Positions 46,310 through 59,725 are shown, counted from the stretch's first letter. The stretch: 59,905 nucleotides of DNA from a bacterium (GCA_030427445.1 JAUIBQ010000005.1:1-59905), one strand, 5' to 3'. The notes: generated from the letters alone by a model not told the origin. Program-made: numbers and translations.

Positions 46310-46375
46310 TACTCCTCCATTATGCCGATTGTGCTAATTATCTCATAAGTAAAAGTTTCAATTCTACTCTGGGTA

Positions 46376-46410
46376 TCAAAAAGTCAGAACTATATCTACA
46401 GTTCTGACTT
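46376..46410 (-). terminator. Rho-independent terminator-like hairpin after tRNA-Asn-like unit E
   Basis: perfect 10-bp inverted repeat AGTCAGAACT/AGTTCTGACT followed (minus strand) by TTTTT. Confidence 0.75.
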
Positions 46411-46424
46411 CATCTATTCCAGCT

Positions 46425-46555
46425 TGGCTCCGGGGACTGGATTCCCCAGGGAAATTTTGGAGAGCTTTAGCACGTGCTAGTACTGCACGCTCTGGCTCAA
46501 AATATCGAACCAGCCCTTTCAGGGCAATCTGGTTCGATTCTACATCTTCGATGTA
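46425..46555 (-). ncRNA. structured tRNA-Asn-derived unit E, ending CCCCGGAGCCA
   Basis: TGGCTCCGGGGACTGGATTC identical to tRNA-Asn 3' end; 10-bp stem ATCGAACCAG/CTGGTTCGAT; stems TTTTG/CAAAA and AGAGC/GCTCT; 5' hairpin TACATC..GATGTA. Confidence 0.55.
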
Positions 46556-46556
46556 A

Positions 46557-46586
46557 AAGAAAAAGCCCCGACAAATGTCGAGACTT
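46557..46586 (-). terminator. terminator-like hairpin of unit D
   Basis: minus strand AAGTCTCGAC-ATTT-GTCGGGGCTT then TTT. Confidence 0.6.
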
Positions 46587-46592
46587 CATTTT

Positions 46593-46613
46593 TGGCTCGC
46601 TGTGGTGAGCGAG
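46593..46613 (-). other. short hairpin with GAGCCA end (unit D)
   Basis: minus strand CTCGCT-CACCAC-AGCGAG-CCA, followed by a terminator, resembling the layout of the other units. Confidence 0.35.
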
Positions 46614-46690
46614 TTACGAACTACTCATATACTACTTTAATCTGTTCTAGAACTGTGACATAATTAATTTAACTAATTTAATTTATACAG

Positions 46691-47953
46691 ATGGTACAAA
46701 TACTTAACGACTCAAAAACTGATATCCATGTCATTAAAACTGATTTTGGAACTAATGAAATAAACTTTGTAGAGAGAAAAGGTATTGGACACCCAGATAC
46801 ACTAGCAGACAATCTTGCTGAGCACCTAAGTGCAAAATATTCTCGATACACGTTAGAAAAGTTTGGAGCAATCTTACACCACAATTTTGATAAACTTGGT
46901 ATTCTAGGTGGAAAATCTTTAGTAAAATTTGGCAGCGGAAAAATGACTAGCCCCATAAGAGTGCTAATTAACGGGCGAATATCTGATAAATTTGGCGACG
47001 AAACAATACCTTTTAGAGAGATGCTTTCGTCAGCTACGTACGAGTTTATAAGTGCTCGATTCGGTGAGTTGATCCCCGAAGATATGGTATCTATAACATT
47101 TAATATAAGTACAGCAAGTAGTCCTGGGCATTCAGACAAGAATGATAAAAGCGGCAGTAGTCGCAATTACTGGTTCCAACCTAGAGGGTTAAATGATCTA
47201 CCAGAAATACATAGTTTGTTCTCGAATGATACTTCAATTGGATGTGGGTATTACCCTTTAAGAAGTATTGAATCCTATGTCTTAATGCTGGAAAACGACC
47301 TCACATTAGGTGAGTTTGCCAAGAAACACGTTTGGGCTGGTACAGATGTTAAGATAATGGGTTCTGATATAGAAGGGAAAGTAGATATAACTCTATGCGT
47401 TCCTCAGATCTCTAGATATGTTAATGACATCGAAGAGTATAAAGCAAACATCAAGATCATAAAGGACTATTTAACTGAGCATTCTCAGAAAAATTTAGGG
47501 AGTAAGGTCAATTTTAATCTCAATACGCGTGATGATTACGAAAGGCAAGAGCTATATCTGACAGCTACTGGATCTTCGATTGAAAGTGGTGATGAAGGCT
47601 TGGTAGGTAGAGGTAACCGTGTTAACCAGTTAATTACGATCAATAGTCCTATGAGCATGGAGGGTGCAAGTGGAAAGAACCCTGTATATCACATCGGAAA
47701 ACTCTACTATATAGCAGCCCATCAAATAGCAAAGAAGGTTTATGAAAAATTCGATGGCCTGCAGAATGAAGTGTATCTAGTGAGTAACAGCGGCAGGGCA
47801 TTAATCAGTCCTTGGAAGACCGTAATCAAGGTGCCGAAAAATAGTAATGTTAACCAATCAGACGTAGAGTCATTTGTTGTTGGATGCCTCAGAGAGATAC
47901 CGCAAATTACAAACGAATTAGTGTCAGTAAATTCAGAATTAGTTATCTCATAA
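46691..47953 (+). CDS. archaeal-type S-adenosylmethionine synthetase
   Basis: 'FVERKGIGHPDTLADNLAEHLSAKY', 'GRGNRVNQLITINSPMSMEGASGKNPVYHIGKLYYIAAHQIA'. Confidence 0.9.
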   Translation: MVQILNDSKTDIHVIKTDFGTNEINFVERKGIGHPDTLADNLAEHLSAKYSRYTLEKFGAILHHNFDKLGILGGKSLVKFGSGKMTSPIRVLINGRISDKFGDETIPFREMLSSATYEFISARFGELIPEDMVSITFNISTASSPGHSDKNDKSGSSRNYWFQPRGLNDLPEIHSLFSNDTSIGCGYYPLRSIESYVLMLENDLTLGEFAKKHVWAGTDVKIMGSDIEGKVDITLCVPQISRYVNDIEEYKANIKIIKDYLTEHSQKNLGSKVNFNLNTRDDYERQELYLTATGSSIESGDEGLVGRGNRVNQLITINSPMSMEGASGKNPVYHIGKLYYIAAHQIAKKVYEKFDGLQNEVYLVSNSGRALISPWKTVIKVPKNSNVNQSDVESFVVGCLREIPQITNELVSVNSELVIS

Positions 47954-48031
47954 GTATGAAGTAGCTAGCTTTAATCTATAGTTGTATTTCTGTACAAAAT
48001 GTACTAAAGTATCAGTAGGAATTATTTACCA

Positions 48032-49312
48032 ATGCATGACTTACGTGAGATATTTTCTGAAGAGCAGTTTGGACAGACTGTCGAAGCTTTGCAATATCGT
48101 GGTTTTGAGCTAACTGAAGGCGATAGAGCCGTCTATTATGAACTTAGATCGTTGCGAAGTGGCCAAGAAGATTTACGTGCAGATAAAAATAGAATAGCGG
48201 CACAGTTTAAAGATTCAGACGACCAAAGGCGAGCTGAACTTAGAGAAGAATTGGCTACAGTTGAAAGTGCATTAGAAAGTGCTAAAGAACAGCTTGAAGG
48301 GGTTGAGCCTGGATTTAATGACAGAATGCTCAGAATGCCAAATATATCTGCTCCTCACGTACCTATCGGTGGATCAGAAGATGAAAACGTTGAGGTTTCT
48401 GTTCATGGTGAAATTAAGGTGTTACAAGGTGATGTTACATTAGATCATCTTACTCTTGGCACAAGACTTGGTATTATTGATAACGATAATGCCGCCATGC
48501 TATCGGGCTCTAAATTTTCTCTTTTACGCGGTGAAGGTGCTGTACTAAAACGAGCATTGATAAATTTTATGCTAGACAGCTCTACAGCAAATGGCTATGA
48601 GGAGGTTGATGCTCCATACTTAGTTAGACCCGATATAATGCAGGGGACAGGTCAGTTACCAAAGTTCGATGATGACATGTTTAAAACCACAGACAATAAA
48701 GGTAATCCTCTATATTTGATTCCTACCACTGAGGTTACATTGACCAACTTATTAAGAACTCATGTGTTCTCTCCCGAAGAACTTCCGTACAAGCTTACTG
48801 GATCATCAGAGAACTTCCGCCGCGAAGCTGGAAAGTCAGGGCAGGACACTAAGGGACTAATCAGGAATCATCAATTCCCAAAAATCGAGTTAGTTAGAGT
48901 TGCACACCCAGATGATTCTTGGGAAAGTTATTACGAGATGATAGATGAAGCAAGTTTGGTTCTAGAAACCCTGGGCTTACCTTATCGGCATCTTGATCTT
49001 TGTACGGGAGACTTAGGAGTTGCTGCTATGGCAACGAGGGACCTTGAAGTTTGGTTACCTAGCCAAGGCCGTTACCTGGAGGTTTCTAGTGTTAGTAACA
49101 CTGGGTCTTATCAATCTCGTAGAATGGGTATGAAATTTCTTAATCCAGAAACTGGAAAACGTGAATTTGTTCATACACTTAATGGTACAGCAGTAGCTGT
49201 TGGAAGAACACTAGCTTGCATACTAGAAAATGGCCAGAATCCAGACGGTTCAGTAGACATTCCAGAGGCACTGCATGATTACACTAAGTTTAGTAGGATT
49301 ACGACTGAATGA
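48032..49312 (+). CDS. serS: seryl-tRNA synthetase
   Basis: N-terminal coiled-coil; motif 2 'NFRREAGKSGQDTKGLIRNHQFPKIELV'; 'LCTGDLGVAAMATRDLEVWLPSQGRYLEVSSVSN'; motif 3 'VGRTLACILENGQNPDGSVDIPEAL'. Confidence 0.93.
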   Translation: MHDLREIFSEEQFGQTVEALQYRGFELTEGDRAVYYELRSLRSGQEDLRADKNRIAAQFKDSDDQRRAELREELATVESALESAKEQLEGVEPGFNDRMLRMPNISAPHVPIGGSEDENVEVSVHGEIKVLQGDVTLDHLTLGTRLGIIDNDNAAMLSGSKFSLLRGEGAVLKRALINFMLDSSTANGYEEVDAPYLVRPDIMQGTGQLPKFDDDMFKTTDNKGNPLYLIPTTEVTLTNLLRTHVFSPEELPYKLTGSSENFRREAGKSGQDTKGLIRNHQFPKIELVRVAHPDDSWESYYEMIDEASLVLETLGLPYRHLDLCTGDLGVAAMATRDLEVWLPSQGRYLEVSSVSNTGSYQSRRMGMKFLNPETGKREFVHTLNGTAVAVGRTLACILENGQNPDGSVDIPEALHDYTKFSRITTE

Positions 49313-49956
49313 CAGGAGCTATTTTTATAGGTGGTGGTGGTGGAAAAGAAGATGCTGTTGAATTAGATGCAGCATATAAAAATAAAGTATTATCTTCATC
49401 GAAATCACCAAGTTGCTTGTATATTCCCCATGCTATGGAGTCAGGAAAACATAGCAAAGCTCTTCACTGGTTTACTGAAACGTATGACTTCTTTGAGGAT
49501 ATTAAGTTACTGCAAGCCCCTAAAGATTTAGAGGATGAATACGATAGCATCTATATGGGTGGAGGATATTGTCATAGGCTAAGAGATACTCTAATAAGCT
49601 TTGATGTCCATTCGGCGTTTTTTAAATCTTTTATTGGAAAAGGCGGCAGCCTATATGGTGGTAGTGCAGGAGGGGTTGTTCTAGGAAAAACCTTATTGTC
49701 ATCAAGAGAAGTTATGTTACGACCTGAAACGTTTCTGCCTTTAGACCATCAGGGCATGGATATTTGCAACGGACTTAGCTTTAGGCCTCATTTTACAGGC
49801 AGCAAAGACGAGGCTTTAGCAATAGAATCTCTTTCTAGGGAGCAAGAAATAGCAGTAATAGCTCTTAGCGAGGGAGCTGGAGTAATAATACAAGAGGGCC
49901 AAGGACACGAACTCATTAACCCTGATCTTGCTCTAGAATTTGGTGTGGACTTATGA
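49309..49956 (+). CDS. S51-family peptidase (peptidase E/cyanophycinase-like)
   Basis: 'YDSIYMGGGYCHRLRDTL', nucleophile 'YGGSAGGVVLGKTLL', 'FRPHFTGS'; 4-nt ATGA overlaps with both neighbours. Confidence 0.85.
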   Translation: MTGAIFIGGGGGKEDAVELDAAYKNKVLSSSKSPSCLYIPHAMESGKHSKALHWFTETYDFFEDIKLLQAPKDLEDEYDSIYMGGGYCHRLRDTLISFDVHSAFFKSFIGKGGSLYGGSAGGVVLGKTLLSSREVMLRPETFLPLDHQGMDICNGLSFRPHFTGSKDEALAIESLSREQEIAVIALSEGAGVIIQEGQGHELINPDLALEFGVDL

Positions 49957-50963
49957 TTAATATTGAAGCTTTTGAAGCTCGAATGAAATGTCTAGAAGCG
50001 TATTCTTTCTCAGAAAGATATGCAACTGCAGTATCTAATTTAGCTGATCTGTATACGGAAATCGAATATGTTGAACCTATGCCGCTAGTTCGTGATATAG
50101 ACGTAGACTCAACCTTACTAACTTCCTCCGGTTTACAGTATATGAACCAGTTCATACATGGTGATATGCCAGTACCCAACCATGCGTTCTTGATATCACA
50201 GCCTGTCGTTAGGATGAACTATCTCCCTACTGTGTCTATGGGGTCATATACAAACTTCGTCAATTTCGGCACAATGCAAATTGGCTTAAACCAAAATGAA
50301 CATACCACTTTAAGCAATGAGTACCGAGATGTCTTGGCTGAAGCAGCTGGAAGTGATGTGACTACAATTACTGTCAGCGAAGATTTAAAGCATAACAGAA
50401 ACGGAATGGATTATAGAACATACCATGAGAATTACGTTGTCGATGACCTTGAGGTCGCCGATTCTCTTTTTCACGAAATTGTTCTAGCAGATGGTGCAAC
50501 TATAACATTGTCAGAACTTGGGGGTGGTTTAGAGAGACTATTATTCGGAAGATCACCTCTAGTAATTCAAGAAACAACAGGTATTAGCACAATAGATGCT
50601 ACCAATATCGAAGCAGCTGACGCTTTTAGGGGCGCAGTCTTGATAGCTGGAAACAGTGTTAGGCCTTCAAATAATAACCAAGGCTACCAATTGCGCCGAC
50701 TTTTAAAGCGTATGCCAGATACTTCAGCAGACCTACAAGAGTTTATGGAATCGTTAGCATTCAGCCAAGTACCACAAAGATATTGGCAAGATATTGGCGG
50801 AACGCAACTTCCATTCAAAGAAACTGCAGACATAGTTAGAAAAGAGTTATGGCGTAACGTAAACTTGGCAGCCTTAAGTAGAGCTGGAGTTAAATCTAAG
50901 TCAAAAATGGATCTCTCTATGGACCCAGTAGCTTTCTCTACTAAATTTAGTCTAGGTGAATAG
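49953..50963 (+). CDS. stand-alone AlaRS-like class II catalytic-domain protein (no editing domain)
   Basis: 'DSTLLTSSGLQYMNQFIHG...ISQPVVRMN' resembles AlaRS N-term; motif 3-like 'LSELGGGLERLLFGRS'; 'RGAVLIAGNSVRPSNNNQGYQLRRLLKRM' matches AlaRS 'IADGVxPSNexRGYvLRRixRR'. Confidence 0.75.
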   Translation: MINIEAFEARMKCLEAYSFSERYATAVSNLADLYTEIEYVEPMPLVRDIDVDSTLLTSSGLQYMNQFIHGDMPVPNHAFLISQPVVRMNYLPTVSMGSYTNFVNFGTMQIGLNQNEHTTLSNEYRDVLAEAAGSDVTTITVSEDLKHNRNGMDYRTYHENYVVDDLEVADSLFHEIVLADGATITLSELGGGLERLLFGRSPLVIQETTGISTIDATNIEAADAFRGAVLIAGNSVRPSNNNQGYQLRRLLKRMPDTSADLQEFMESLAFSQVPQRYWQDIGGTQLPFKETADIVRKELWRNVNLAALSRAGVKSKSKMDLSMDPVAFSTKFSLGE

Positions 50964-51590
50964 ATTATCTAGGCGTTTTATACCTTCTGGGTTAAAAATA
51001 TCAACTATCCTATCATTGCAAAATATTAAGCCAGAGCTCTCGCTAAGTCCGATAAGATTTGAATTAAATCTCTTTGCTTCGGCTATATGACGATTACTAA
51101 ACTCACCATATAAATGTGGCACAAGAGAGGAGTTATTCAAATAATTGTACCCATGATTATCGTTTGACTCAACAAATTCATCAGTTGGAGCTACCGTAAT
51201 TGTTTTGCCAAAAATAATTGCTCCAGCACTTCCTCCGTAAACAAGACCACCGCTGTTGATATGTTTACTTATGTAATCATCAAGTCCATAATGAGCGAGG
51301 GTATATAGTAGCTTACCAGTGTTGCCGCCTCCTATGTATATAAGATCATATGTTTTCTTAGAAAAAGCTTTAGCACTAGCTGAGCTAGTCACTGTATCTA
51401 TACTTTCAAGATATCCGTACTGACTCTTAAACCAATTAACAGCGTCACTATAGTAATCATTCTTTAACGCTACGGGTATATATAGACATCTAGAGGACCC
51501 ACGCTTAAGTAATGCTTTTCGTAAAGATAGATCAATCTTTTTTGATTGTTTAGCGTTGCCACCGCCCGATAGATATATTAAACCTTTCAT
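50952..51590 (-). CDS. S51-family peptidase paralogue
   Basis: 'YDLIYIGGGNTGKLLYTL', 'YGGSAGAIIFGKTI', 'LVPHLYGEF'; clearly homologous to 49309..49956. Confidence 0.85.
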   Translation of the reverse strand: MKGLIYLSGGGNAKQSKKIDLSLRKALLKRGSSRCLYIPVALKNDYYSDAVNWFKSQYGYLESIDTVTSSASAKAFSKKTYDLIYIGGGNTGKLLYTLAHYGLDDYISKHINSGGLVYGGSAGAIIFGKTITVAPTDEFVESNDNHGYNYLNNSSLVPHLYGEFSNRHIAEAKRFNSNLIGLSESSGLIFCNDRIVDIFNPEGIKRLDNLFT

Positions 51591-51655
51591 AATTCACAAT
51601 TGTACATATGATAGATACCTTTGACAAATATAGGTCAATATTATAAGTTATACAT

Positions 51656-52255
51656 ATGACAAATAACGAAATGACTCTTGAAACTTATGAACGTAATATT
51701 GACAAGTTTATTGAACGCACGCCTAAAGACACTATTGGTGAAACTAAAGTTTGGCTTGATGCAATCGCAGAAAGAGTTTCTACAGGCAGCAGTGTGCTTG
51801 AAATAGGAAGCGGCTTTGGACGTGATGCCGACTACTTAAGGTCAAAAGGTATTGGAGTGTTGTGTACTGATGGAGCTGCTGGTTTTGTTAAAGCGCTAAG
51901 AGCGCGAGGTCATGAGGCTATGCAACTAAACGTACTTACTGACGAGATAGACGGTTCTTATGATCTAATATTTGCAGATGCAGTTTTCGAACATTTTACT
52001 CGTGACCAACTTGCTTACGCCCTTTCAAAACTAAATAGGGCCACTGTAGATGGTGGAACTTTAGGTTTTAGCATCAGGAGAGGTGAAGGTGAATATTGGT
52101 CAAAAGAGAAATTAGATGAAGATAGATTTTTTTGTTTGTGGGAACCTGACCAACTAGGTTTCGCCGTAACCGCTGCTGGTTTTAAGGTCGATAGTATTTC
52201 AGAGAGCAATGGCTATCAAAACATAAAAAGACTTTACCTACTTGCTACCAAATAG
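51656..52255 (+). CDS. class I SAM-dependent methyltransferase
   Basis: 'SSVLEIGSGFGRDADYLRSKGIGVLCTDGA', 'YDLIFADAVFEHFT'. Confidence 0.9.
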   Translation: MTNNEMTLETYERNIDKFIERTPKDTIGETKVWLDAIAERVSTGSSVLEIGSGFGRDADYLRSKGIGVLCTDGAAGFVKALRARGHEAMQLNVLTDEIDGSYDLIFADAVFEHFTRDQLAYALSKLNRATVDGGTLGFSIRRGEGEYWSKEKLDEDRFFCLWEPDQLGFAVTAAGFKVDSISESNGYQNIKRLYLLATK

Positions 52256-52314
52256 TTTTAGTAGATTTCCATTTTATTGCTACTTTGCTTCATAACTAAA
52301 GTATCTCACGAAAC

Positions 52315-52340
52315 AAAAACACTATGTTTCCATAGTGCTT
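52315..52340 (-). terminator. terminator hairpin of unit C
   Basis: minus strand CACTATG-GAAA-CATAGTG-TTTTT. Confidence 0.75.
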
Positions 52341-52346
52341 TCAGCT

Positions 52347-52557
52347 TGGCTCCGGGGTGAGAAAGTCCAGTGGACTTTTGCAAGGGAGACCACTCTTGAA
52401 CACTTGTTTTCAAAGAGGTGGCGACGGGGTCGCGGAACGTGACTGGATAGAATCAACACAACAAATCTGTGCGCCTGGAGCAGGGCAGCAGACTTGATAT
52501 CGAACCAGCGACCTCGAAGTTAACAGCTTCTTGTCCGCTGTACAGCGGACTACCCAG
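52347..52557 (-). ncRNA. interrupted tRNA-Asn(GTT)-like unit C with long insert in T-arm
   Basis: 34 nt (52500..52533) identical to tRNA-Asn anticodon arm to T-loop; CCCCGGAGCCA 3' end at 52347..52357; 18-nt perfect palindrome GTCCGCTGTACAGCGGAC in D-arm position. Confidence 0.6.
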
Positions 52558-52607
52558 TATTTAGTATTAATTTCTTGGCTCAGCTTACAGGTCACGGACT
52601 TTAATAA

Positions 52608-53030
52608 CTACTGTAAGTTGCTGTCTTCAGCTAGGCGAACCATTCTATCTATAAACCAAAATTTAACTATCATAACAAGCAGCGAAGACAGTACAAGGGG
52701 TATAAGTTCTTGTTGCCAACCAAAGTAAATAAACAGCCCAAATAATGGAATATTAGCTAAGTTCAGTAGCGTCGGCAGATCGTGCTTCAATTTTTTACCA
52801 TCCTCAAAATATAGTTTTTCACCAATAACACCTTTACTCATCCAGTTATCGCCATTTTTAGGTCGAGGGAATAACAGCGGATTCACAACAAGCCAAACCA
52901 AAGTTATTCCTATGATCCAGTAGTTGTGCAAGTATAAGCCGACTGCTAACATCGGCATGGATAGAACACGACTCCATCCACTCCATGGATTAGTATGCCT
53001 ATCCCAGACTCTATCGCTTAGTATTGCCAT
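52608..53030 (-). CDS. small membrane protein ('NPWSGWSRVL' family)
   Basis: 140-aa ORF, 'MAILSDRVWDRHTNPWSGWSRVLSMPMLAVGLYLHNYWIIGITLVWLVVNPLLFPRP'. Confidence 0.7.
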   Translation of the reverse strand: MAILSDRVWDRHTNPWSGWSRVLSMPMLAVGLYLHNYWIIGITLVWLVVNPLLFPRPKNGDNWMSKGVIGEKLYFEDGKKLKHDLPTLLNLANIPLFGLFIYFGWQQELIPLVLSSLLVMIVKFWFIDRMVRLAEDSNLQ

Positions 53031-53060
53031 AAACCTACTATAGCAGATGCTTAGATTAAA

Positions 53061-53102
53061 ATAGCAGGCTATTCAGTAGCGCGAAAGCTTACTGGATAGC
53101 CT
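53061..53102 (-). terminator. terminator hairpin of unit B
   Basis: minus strand CAGGCTATCCAGTAAGC-TTTCGC-GCTACTGAATAGCCTG then CTATTTT. Confidence 0.65.
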
Positions 53103-53117
53103 GTAAAATATATGCTC

Positions 53118-53222
53118 TTGGCTCCGGGGACTGGAAAGATAAAATCCGCCCGTCTACCAAGCTAAGGCTTGGTGGGGGATTTCCGCCCCAGCTTCGCTGG
53201 TTCAATTCGCATACTGCGAACT
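53118..53222 (-). ncRNA. structured tRNA-Asn-derived unit B
   Basis: CCAGTCCCCGGAGCCA 3' end; hairpins CCAAGC/GCTTGG, AATCC/GGATT, TTCGC/GCGAA; homologous to unit A. Confidence 0.55.
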
Positions 53223-53223
53223 T

Positions 53224-53261
53224 AAACTAAAAACAGACCCGATTGGGTCCGTTCTTAGTTT
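53224..53261 (-). terminator. terminator hairpin of unit A
   Basis: 16-bp stem with two mismatches AACTAAGAACGGACCC-AATC-GGGTCTGTTTTTAGTT. Confidence 0.65.
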
Positions 53262-53363
53262 GGCTCCGGGGACTAGAAGCCTATGGAAATTCCGCCCGTC
53301 TGCAAGCTAAGCTTGCGGGGGAATATCGAACCGCTTCGCTGGTTTAATTCGCTGTTCGCGAAC
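53261..53363 (-). ncRNA. structured tRNA-Asn-derived unit A
   Basis: TAGTCCCCGGAGCCA 3' end; hairpins GCAAGC/GCTTGC, ATTCC/GGAAT, TTCGC/GCGAA; homologous to unit B. Confidence 0.55.
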
Positions 53364-53365
53364 TC

Positions 53366-53403
53366 AAAAGAAAAGAGTCAGACAAAATGCCTGACTCTTT
53401 TCT
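53366..53403 (-). terminator. tRNA-Asn terminator
   Basis: perfect 13-bp stem AGAAAAGAGTCAG/CTGACTCTTTTCT with TTTT downstream on minus strand. Confidence 0.75.
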
Positions 53404-53405
53404 AT

Positions 53406-53480
53406 TGGCTCCGGGGACTGGATTCGAACCAGCGACCTCGAAGTTAACAGCTTCTTGCTCTACCGCTGAGCTACCCCGGA
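53406..53480 (-). tRNA. tRNA-Asn(GTT) with encoded CCA
   Basis: minus strand TCCGGGGTAGCTCAGCGGTAGAGCAAGAAGCTGTTAACTTCGAGGTCGCTGGTTCGAATCCAGTCCCCGGAGCCA folds as a cloverleaf, anticodon GTT. Confidence 0.95.
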
Positions 53481-57975: not shown

Positions 57976-58089
57976 TACAGTAATTTATATATTATAAATA
58001 CAATTTAGTCAAACGCCGTGAAAAACACAATATGTAGCGTGAGCAGAATCGTGCTAGACTCTAGGTAATAGGCAAATTAATAACAAAAA

Positions 58090-58151
58090 CGATCATGAAG
58101 CAGGGTGAAATTCCCTCACAGTGCCGCTACGGTCAAAGTCCGAGCTGATCT
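58090..58151 (+). promoter_or_regulatory. cobalamin-riboswitch-like aptamer core
   Basis: GATCATGAAGCAGGGTGAAATTCCCTCACAGTGCCGCTACGGTCAAAGTCCGAGCTGATC: GGTGAAA..TCC..ACAGTGCCGCTACGGT..AGTCCGA motifs, closed by GATCA/TGATC. Confidence 0.7.
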
Positions 58152-58174
58152 AAAACACCCGAGCAGGAAATAAA

Positions 58175-59725
58175 ATGGCGTTGAGCCCAACAGAGGTAGA
58201 AAGACCAAATGGCGTGGAATTTGAAGATTTCACACATGAATCAGACTTTATTCTGTGGGAAAAAGAGCTTCAACAAAAGACAGCGGTTTTAGCTGAGTGT
58301 TTGCCGTACGAAGGTGAAGCTCTGGATCTATCTAGGGCGCTGCTCGCATCAGCAGCGGTAAGCTCTCTGATAAAGATTGAGACTGTCGATAATGGTGAAC
58401 AAACAACACTCATGACTTCGGCGCAACGAGCCAATTATGATCCCGATGCAAAAGCGATGGTGTTAACTAATGCGAAGACAGACTACCTTGAAAGGGCGTA
58501 TAAATCCGGACATACAGTAAGTGTTGACTTGTTTGCAGTAGATGGCGAGCTCTCTCAGCATGGACAAAGTATGATGAACGTCAACGTAAATAGTATGAAG
58601 TACTTAACAGATGAAACACTGAAGAATCGAGGACGAATAGAAACTCATAATGCTGTACGTCAACAAAAATATTTCGAAGCTGGCCTCCTGTGTGATCATA
58701 CACTTGTTACGTTCTCGCTCGTACCGGAAGCAATAGAGAAATCTAAAGCTAAAAAATTAGGATTCTTCACGGAGAATATGAGTTTAGCAATCCAGGCTGT
58801 TGGGAGTGCAGATGATGATTCTGTAAAGCTTGAGTCTGCATTTGTCGCCGGGGCAGATCTTGATGGCCGAAGATTTGATTTGGACACGGTAAAACAACTG
58901 TATTTAGACCTCGGTATAGATATCCAAGATAAAAATACAGAACAGATACTGGCGAGCCCAGTGCTAATTCATAACAGCCTTATGAAAGACGGGGTGGTGG
59001 ATATAGTGAAGCTTTATGACTGTATAGCAGGCAGAATAACGTCACAGCGCCGTTTTTATGGCCAACAAGCAAGTGGTGGAAATGACTACGAAGAACACAA
59101 AAAAGAATGTACTCGAAGAGAGCGCGTAGCAAATGAAGTAGCTGAACGCACTGCAGATGCGTTGATAGCTGCAGCTGATACGTTCAGCGCCCCATTAGAT
59201 GCAACTCGCAAGCTTCATGAGCTAAATGATGCAGAATTAAAGAGAATGATTGTTACGGACAGCAGTATTGATGTCGCTGTTCTTGGGCCTACTGCTGTTC
59301 ATGCAGTTGAGCAAGCAAGAATGTATTACGCAAACAATGACATGATGAGTTTGCAGATTTCACTAGAGTCCATACGCAGAAATGGCTCATCTAGCTCTTG
59401 TCCAAATGGTGGATTTTCGAGTGGAGAATCGTCAGTTGTTGGTGTCGAGAGTCTGGGTGCTGGTATGGGTGACGAAAACCAAGAAGAGATTGGGGGAAAG
59501 CAGGAGATGACCTGCCCATTCTGTGAAGAGAAAACGAGCGGAGATCCGTGCGCAGACAGTATTACATGTACTAAATGTAGCGCATCTACGAAGTATTCAG
59601 AGGAAGAGAATAACAGAAGAGCTGCACAGTATAAGAAACTCAAAATGATCAAAGTAGCTAGTCAAGAAGCAGTTGATAAAAATTTCTGGGGTTTAATGAA
59701 AGGGGTAAAAGATGACAGCAGATGA
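58175..59725 (+). CDS. hypothetical protein with C-terminal zinc-ribbon
   Basis: 516-aa ORF; 'CPFCEEKTSGDPCADSITCTKC'. Confidence 0.7.
   Translation: MALSPTEVERPNGVEFEDFTHESDFILWEKELQQKTAVLAECLPYEGEALDLSRALLASAAVSSLIKIETVDNGEQTTLMTSAQRANYDPDAKAMVLTNAKTDYLERAYKSGHTVSVDLFAVDGELSQHGQSMMNVNVNSMKYLTDETLKNRGRIETHNAVRQQKYFEAGLLCDHTLVTFSLVPEAIEKSKAKKLGFFTENMSLAIQAVGSADDDSVKLESAFVAGADLDGRRFDLDTVKQLYLDLGIDIQDKNTEQILASPVLIHNSLMKDGVVDIVKLYDCIAGRITSQRRFYGQQASGGNDYEEHKKECTRRERVANEVAERTADALIAAADTFSAPLDATRKLHELNDAELKRMIVTDSSIDVAVLGPTAVHAVEQARMYYANNDMMSLQISLESIRRNGSSSSCPNGGFSSGESSVVGVESLGAGMGDENQEEIGGKQEMTCPFCEEKTSGDPCADSITCTKCSASTKYSEEENNRRAAQYKKLKMIKVASQEAVDKNFWGLMKGVKDDSR

Follow-up and report, generated by a model that had tools for sequence, protein, structure and literature searches.

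Related elements at tRNA genes

Genomic islands that target tRNA genes regenerate the end of the target tRNA and displace the old one (PMC4383910; PMC9897764). Partial tRNAs have been explained by integrating elements, which measured ~9-23 kb in one study (PMC9897764), and tycheposons are cargo transposons of 4-200 kb with a tyrosine recombinase (PMC10872708). Short, structured and dispersed elements include the Rickettsia palindromic elements and the mobile GC clusters of yeast mitochondria (PMC2694212; PMC4478555). Integron attC sites are folded and defined by their fold more than by their sequence, with one strand preferred (PMC2727003).

The small units described here, at the tRNA genes of Saccharibacteria, resemble each of these systems in part. 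Like tRNA-targeting islands, they are found with a regenerated tRNA and a displaced end; however, islands span kilobases and carry an integrase, whereas the units are 100-210 nt long, free of cargo and also found on the 5' side of tRNAs. They share with tycheposons the tRNA-anchored insertion arrays but differ from them in size (100-210 nt compared to 4-200 kb). Similar to the small palindromic elements, they are short, structured, dispersed, apparently non-autonomous and housed in reduced genomes; to our knowledge, the palindromic elements are not tied to tRNA genes and do not regenerate their target. The likeness to integron cassettes comprises the small size, structured sites defined by fold with one strand preferred, arrays at one platform and a probable order with the newest unit nearest to the platform. 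In the commonest insert, termed the C-element, the fold is indeed conserved on one strand, as revealed by covariation and a strand test. Different from cassettes, the units are mostly cargo-free and sit on a tRNA gene as their platform, neither an integron integrase nor an attI platform being found, and the C-element has three helices compared to the one imperfect hairpin of attC.

Since size, target, strand-specific fold and two-sided occurrence together fit no known family, we regard the class as new, and we know of no described element that inserts ~100 bp exactly at tRNA genes, keeps the tRNA whole and has a core folding in one strand. A literature search found nothing on such units in Saccharibacteria, which is weak evidence given its thin coverage of subscription papers. 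If the agent were an island integrase acting in trans, the units would be a variation on a known kind of element.

Organization of the tRNA-Asn locus

The window, a stretch of 59,905 nucleotides, belongs to a Saccharibacteria genome of 966,415 bases (G000). ARAGORN identified a single tRNA in it, an intact tRNA-Asn(GTT) on the minus strand at 53406-53480 (Rfam tRNA, 65.7 bits), which is the insertion platform. The sequence CCCCGGAGCCA occurs five times on the minus strand, at 46425-46435, 52347-52357, 53119-53129, 53261-53271 and, within the tRNA, 53406-53416. Shuffled windows held 0.31 matches on average with one mismatch allowed and never reached five, and in the whole genome CCCCGGAGCCA is limited to these five copies. 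The recurrence of the tRNA-Asn 3' end, first noticed in a sequence-only reading of the window, is thus borne out, with one start corrected from 53118 to 53119. Two further observations of that reading hold as well: a distinct terminator-like hairpin directly follows each copy, and the DNA before each copy is foldable. The five ends thus have five terminators, and the foldable DNA contains a GGTTCGATAT-type sequence or an inverted T-arm.

All parts of the array lie on the minus strand unless otherwise stated. Unit A (53261..53405, 145 nt), defined by its sequence and displaced end, adjoins the tRNA and contains a terminator (~53401-53366), a hairpin P1 (~53365-53348), a hairpin P2 of inverted and direct T-arm copies (~53345-53325), an A-type insert P3 (~53328-53284) and the displaced tRNA end, which extends to 53261. 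Unit B (53119..53260, 142 nt) has the terminator at 53260-53226, P1, P2, an A-type insert P3 at ~53183-53141 and, at 53134-53119, a displaced end identical to the tRNA at 16/16 positions. It is followed by putative cargo island 1 (52576..53118), which comprises a terminator hairpin, a DUF6653 membrane protein gene (52608-53030) and a short displaced end, GAGCCA, at 52581-52576.

Unit C (52347..52575) consists of P1 (52550-52533), a type-2 insert (~52500-52449), ATCCAG (52448-52443), a nested C-element and the end CCCCGGAGCCA (52357-52347), in addition to an exact 34-nt copy of tRNA-Asn from the anticodon arm to the T-loop (52533-52500). The nested C-element, 87 nt with three helices, occupies 52357..52443 on the plus strand, opposite to the tRNA (model R1 match 52345-52455 (+), 101.2 bits). 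Putative cargo island 2 (46593..52346) starts with a terminator (52346-52314), ends with the short displaced end GAGCCA (46598-46593) and carries genes for a methyltransferase (51656-52255, +), an S51 peptidase (50952-51590, -), an AlaRS-like protein (49953-50963, +), a second S51 peptidase (49309-49956, +), SerRS (48032-49312, +) and AdoMet synthetase (46691-47953, +). Unit E (46425..46592) contains a terminator (~46592-46558), P1 (~46555-46541), P2 (46538-46504, ATCGAACCAG...CTGGTTCGAT), an insert P3 (~46506-46444) and a displaced tRNA end (46443-46425). Beyond it lie the ancestral tRNA-Asn terminator and 3' flank (46370..46424), here ~7 kb from the tRNA. The inserts of A and B are alike, C has another and that of E differs; the A-type pattern is also present at C29 of G000 and in G004, with a variant in G008.

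Insertion units at many tRNA genes

The array is not particular to tRNA-Asn. Fragments of the window segment match many relatives, where they adjoin other tRNAs, and in G000 itself units of this sort come after tRNA-Arg, Lys, Val, Gln, Tyr, Trp, Leu, Met and others. A search of 113 distinct tRNA loci for displaced copies of the 16-nt 3' end recovered 52 within 12 kb downstream (34 exact, eight with one mismatch and ten with two), a few of which are neighbouring whole tRNAs rather than units, compared to none for a reversed-end control. The closed genome G045 gave 11 versus 0.

The units vary narrowly in length, from about 100 to 210 nt, and share one anatomy among several unrelated-looking insert types (A-type, type 2 and C). 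Each combines a displaced tRNA end, usually the 3' end from the T-loop to CCA and sometimes the 5' end, with an inverted T-arm copy and with a structured insert seated in the T-loop. Reading from the tRNA, the order is terminator, P1, P2, P3, 3' strand of the T-stem, acceptor strand, CCA and the older terminator. Hairpin P2 is built from the 5' strand of the tRNA T-arm, copied once inverted and once direct. In either orientation the T-arm copies follow the sequence of the adjacent tRNA, with means that were never reached in 5000 permutations. The units thus carry a tRNA-matched T-arm and its inverted copy beside a structured insert in the displaced T-loop.

Comparison of relatives provided both occupied and empty sites with exact junctions, as expected from the earlier suggestion of insertion at the tRNA. 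In G018, where the site is empty, an intact tRNA-Asn is directly followed by the terminator that comes after unit E in the window; this terminator is 183 nt away in G013, 210 nt away in G003 and two units away in G011. Between G004 and G010, which belong to one genus, three sites differ. In G004, tRNA-Thr(TGT) is followed by an insertion of 104 nt with a second copy of its last 18 nt, and tRNA-Arg(TCT) is preceded by one of ~201 nt in which its first 25 nt recur along with a C-element. Both sites are empty in G010. Conversely, the unit of G010 at tRNA-Val(GAC) is absent from G004. None of the three insertions carries a gene, and those at tRNA-Thr and tRNA-Arg are exact to the tRNA end. Exact insertion of a unit at a tRNA gene therefore leaves the tRNA intact and displaces its old end.

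The C-element

The C-element is 87 nt long, and 28 aligned copies gave a consensus of three helices with 32 pairs, 27 of which show compensatory changes on both sides. Its covariation score of 0.613 compares to 0.20 after shuffling and at most 0.12 when partners are slid. G-U pairs outnumber A-C mismatches by 86 to 27 in an alignment whose fitting to the model favours structure; this excess identifies the folding strand as the tRNA-sense strand. The C-element is thus selected to fold as one strand, that of the tRNA. Covariation was tested on the C-element alone, one exact A-type pattern having given too few copies, so the covarying helix described for the window units stands for the C-element family and not for A, B and E taken individually.

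A covariance-model search of relatives, as the sequence-only reading had proposed, gave C-element matches in 38 of 61 genomes of the order, with up to 20 copies per genome. A phylum-wide sample of 240 genomes yielded one match outside the order, which is at chance level; contigs with C-elements are labelled Ca. Saccharibacteria or Patescibacteria, and one assembly Parcubacteria. No known structured RNA family among the Rfam 15 models matched the C-element or the units, and no phage, plasmid or virus with a C-element was detected in INPHARED, PLSDB or IMG/VR at the sensitivity of exact patterns or blastn.

In G045, 15 of 17 C-elements lie within 400 nt of a tRNA, compared to 3% of random positions. 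Across genomes 68 of 82 are near a tRNA (41 downstream and 27 upstream), all on the tRNA strand. A typical downstream copy sits in the T-loop of a truncated tRNA copy, usually replacing 1-2 nt, and is flanked on the right by the last 20-22 nt to CCA and on the left by 8-13 nt of the T-arm. Upstream copies mirror this layout: tRNA positions 1-25 or 1-55/65 lie to their left. The copy in the window is reversed and seated in the T-stem/acceptor part, and reversed C-elements also occur at the acceptor end of tRNA-Asn copies in two further loci (L020 and L049). Nearest-neighbour tests showed that C-elements cluster weakly by genome and by tRNA, which is consistent with turnover and gives no proof of jumps between tRNAs. 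A cassette made of a tRNA gene between two C-elements was considered and rejected, as it fits only a few loci (L027 and L201) and most tRNAs of G045 have a C-element on a single side.

Cargo islands and candidate enzymes

The small units share their kind of target with a second class of element, islands of kilobases with large serine recombinases, which use its final 6-8 nt. The recombinase genes of these islands run convergently into tRNA 3' ends, with the stop codon inside the tRNA, at tRNA-Arg, Asn, Met, Gly, Gln, Lys, Glu, Trp, Leu and Asp. Two islands have a readable far end (L140 near 12683 and L134 near 8234), which in both retains no more than the final 6-8 nt of the tRNA plus a terminator and is followed by a small unit. 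In the window, the two GAGCCA ends noted earlier are present, and six bases alone are not significant; as their position matches the short exit ends of integrase islands elsewhere, the sites at 52576 and 46593 probably mark the ends of two cargo islands. No clear terminator follows the site at 52576, where the assignment is weaker. Neither island of the window contains a recombinase gene. Contrary to the earlier proposal, the units are no simple delimiters of cargo: A and B contain none, and the two cargo blocks run to the short GAGCCA sites, after each of which comes a small unit (C and E). Nor are the units in general mainly boundaries of cargo.

Several enzymes were considered as the agent of unit insertion. 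G000, like most of 21 genomes, encodes a single Xer-like tyrosine recombinase, as a rule close to tRNA-Arg(CCT). A search for classical dif sites gave matches at the level of a reversed-pattern control, leaving no Xer site to compare. The DEDD transposase of bridge-RNA elements (IS110/IS1111) was rejected, as PF01548 occurs in one of 61 genomes and not in G000. So was a reverse transcriptase, as would serve a retroelement or SINE-like element, since PF00078 occurs in nine of 61 genomes and is missing from G000 and from the C-rich G001, G004, G006, G009 and G016. The closed, C-rich G045 encodes one serine integrase, found by HMM beside tRNA-Leu(GAG) and missed by a motif scan; absences based on motifs only are therefore not counted as evidence. 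A crude motif search of G045, the only genome covered, detected no HUH/Y1 transposase.

A model for unit insertion and its alternatives

We propose that A, B, C and E are Saccharibacteria-specific insertion units of 100-210 nt that enter tRNA genes, probably as non-autonomous mobile elements with a folded recombination site. A site-specific mobile unit of this kind is suggested by the restored target, the displaced old end, the T-loop specificity and the one-strand fold. The small units would be comparable to empty cassettes, and their hairpins may serve as the site at which a single-stranded or cruciform intermediate recombines. Given the known stiffness of DNA, a double-stranded circle of 104 bp would be stiff, which favours such an intermediate. 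The joining of units at the T-loop would fall to a putative recombinase supplied in trans, perhaps the housekeeping Xer or the serine recombinases of the islands, and each joined unit would bring a fresh tRNA end, usually with a terminator. In the window, several unit insertions and two cargo islands would have pushed the ancestral tRNA-Asn terminator ~7 kb away. Less in keeping with the model are the several unrelated-looking insert types within one anatomy, the weak clustering of C-elements and the reversed C-element of the window. A more specific form of this model, which we put forward only tentatively, is an integron analogue on a tRNA platform, in which 100-210-nt cassettes move as folded single strands into T-loops and the tRNA is rebuilt at each step, by the lone Xer or an undescribed enzyme.

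The main rival is a function as non-coding RNA or as tRNA decoy, the 3' half and CCA being retained for a purpose such as engaging tRNA enzymes, anticodon or T-loop nucleases, or integrases. The conserved one-strand fold of the C-element also fits a functional RNA, which we count against the mobile-unit model; its conserved loops, its orientation on the tRNA strand, which could reflect selection at the RNA level, the CCA ends with terminators and the long-term presence in the order point the same way. Nevertheless, the units lie behind terminators and, judged from sequence, have no evident promoter of their own; the presence and type of unit at the same tRNA vary between genera, and many C-elements sit upstream in truncated 5' copies that lack a CCA end. 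Overall, we consider a role as RNA or decoy rather improbable.

Alternatively, the units might be attR scars left when islands with a serine or tyrosine integrase entered in series and afterwards lost their cargo, an origin that, for serine integrases, we favoured at first and dropped after reading the exit ends of the islands. Serine-recombinase islands do target tRNA 3' ends throughout the group, and integrating elements are the normal source of partial tRNAs (PMC9897764). However, no more than 6-8 nt of the tRNA remain at the two readable exits, where a distinct small unit comes next, cargo-free units of 104 and ~201 nt are present or absent as wholes within one genus, and unit lengths are narrow. 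Moreover, no serine recombinase was detected in G016 and G006, which have 19 and 20 C-elements, respectively, with G006 being 85% complete. The scar explanation is thus unlikely, and the doubt that the sequence-only reading cast on plain serial integration was right, as the cargo-free units are themselves insertions; its interpretation as a whole, which offered att scars, structured boundaries of cassettes in the manner of integrons, or expressed RNAs with CCA ends, is partly supported. Local replication or repair errors at tRNA hairpins, such as template switching or slippage, could leave degenerate duplicates, including inverted T-arm copies, duplicated ends and related copies within one locus. 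Such local events cannot account for one 87-nt insert, its loops conserved, that recurs at the majority of tRNA types and across many genera, and the terminators adjoining the tRNA differ from the displaced old terminator. As one structured family occurs at many tRNA types, such errors are largely refuted as a full account and seem very improbable.

The C-element is present in over half of the examined genomes of the order, in organisms with very small genomes. Insertion units of this kind would account for the partial tRNAs that clutter such genomes, identify tRNA genes as places where the genome grows, and point to a recombination activity or RNA class that is not yet known.

tRNA-Asn loci and C-element clusters in relatives

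A near-identical unit, i.e. a 100-210-nt insertion ending in a displaced copy of the tRNA end, lies 3' of tRNA-Asn in two relatives of different families (loci L036 of genome G003 and L050 of G011). Even so, the displaced end in G011 differs from the acceptor stem of its tRNA-Asn, which suggests that the tRNA allele was swapped after insertion of the unit. A single metagenome-assembled genome, G018, has three tRNA-Asn loci (L047, L049 and L051) of two alleles, each with a separate array or cargo; these loci could be genuine or could represent contamination.

At least five C-elements, the 87-nt three-helix covarying insert most common in units, surround tRNA-Leu(TAG) in G016 (L201:1300-3010); within this cluster, one almost full-length tRNA copy is interrupted twice, by an insertion in its anticodon arm and another in its T-loop.

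Recombinase genes adjacent to tRNAs

For many tRNA types, the 3' part of the tRNA gene, read antisense, supplies the last codons of a large serine recombinase gene (L134:14671-16290; L135; L139; L140; L142-L146; L149-L151). In addition, tRNA-Arg(CCT) has the lone Xer recombinase gene nearby, at a distance of at most about 1-1.5 kb, at 14 of 20 loci (L086-L105) from many genomes of the order.

Gene content of the window

An AdoCbl-II (cobalamin) riboswitch on the plus strand (58077-58156; 43.4 bits) is followed by a gene at 58175-59725. The cargo block downstream of tRNA-Asn (46691-52255) encodes two S51 peptidases, a methyltransferase, a second-style SerRS, an AlaRS-like fragment and an archaeal-type AdoMet synthetase, and may represent a pathway for a small peptide or a nucleotide-peptide, self-protection included.
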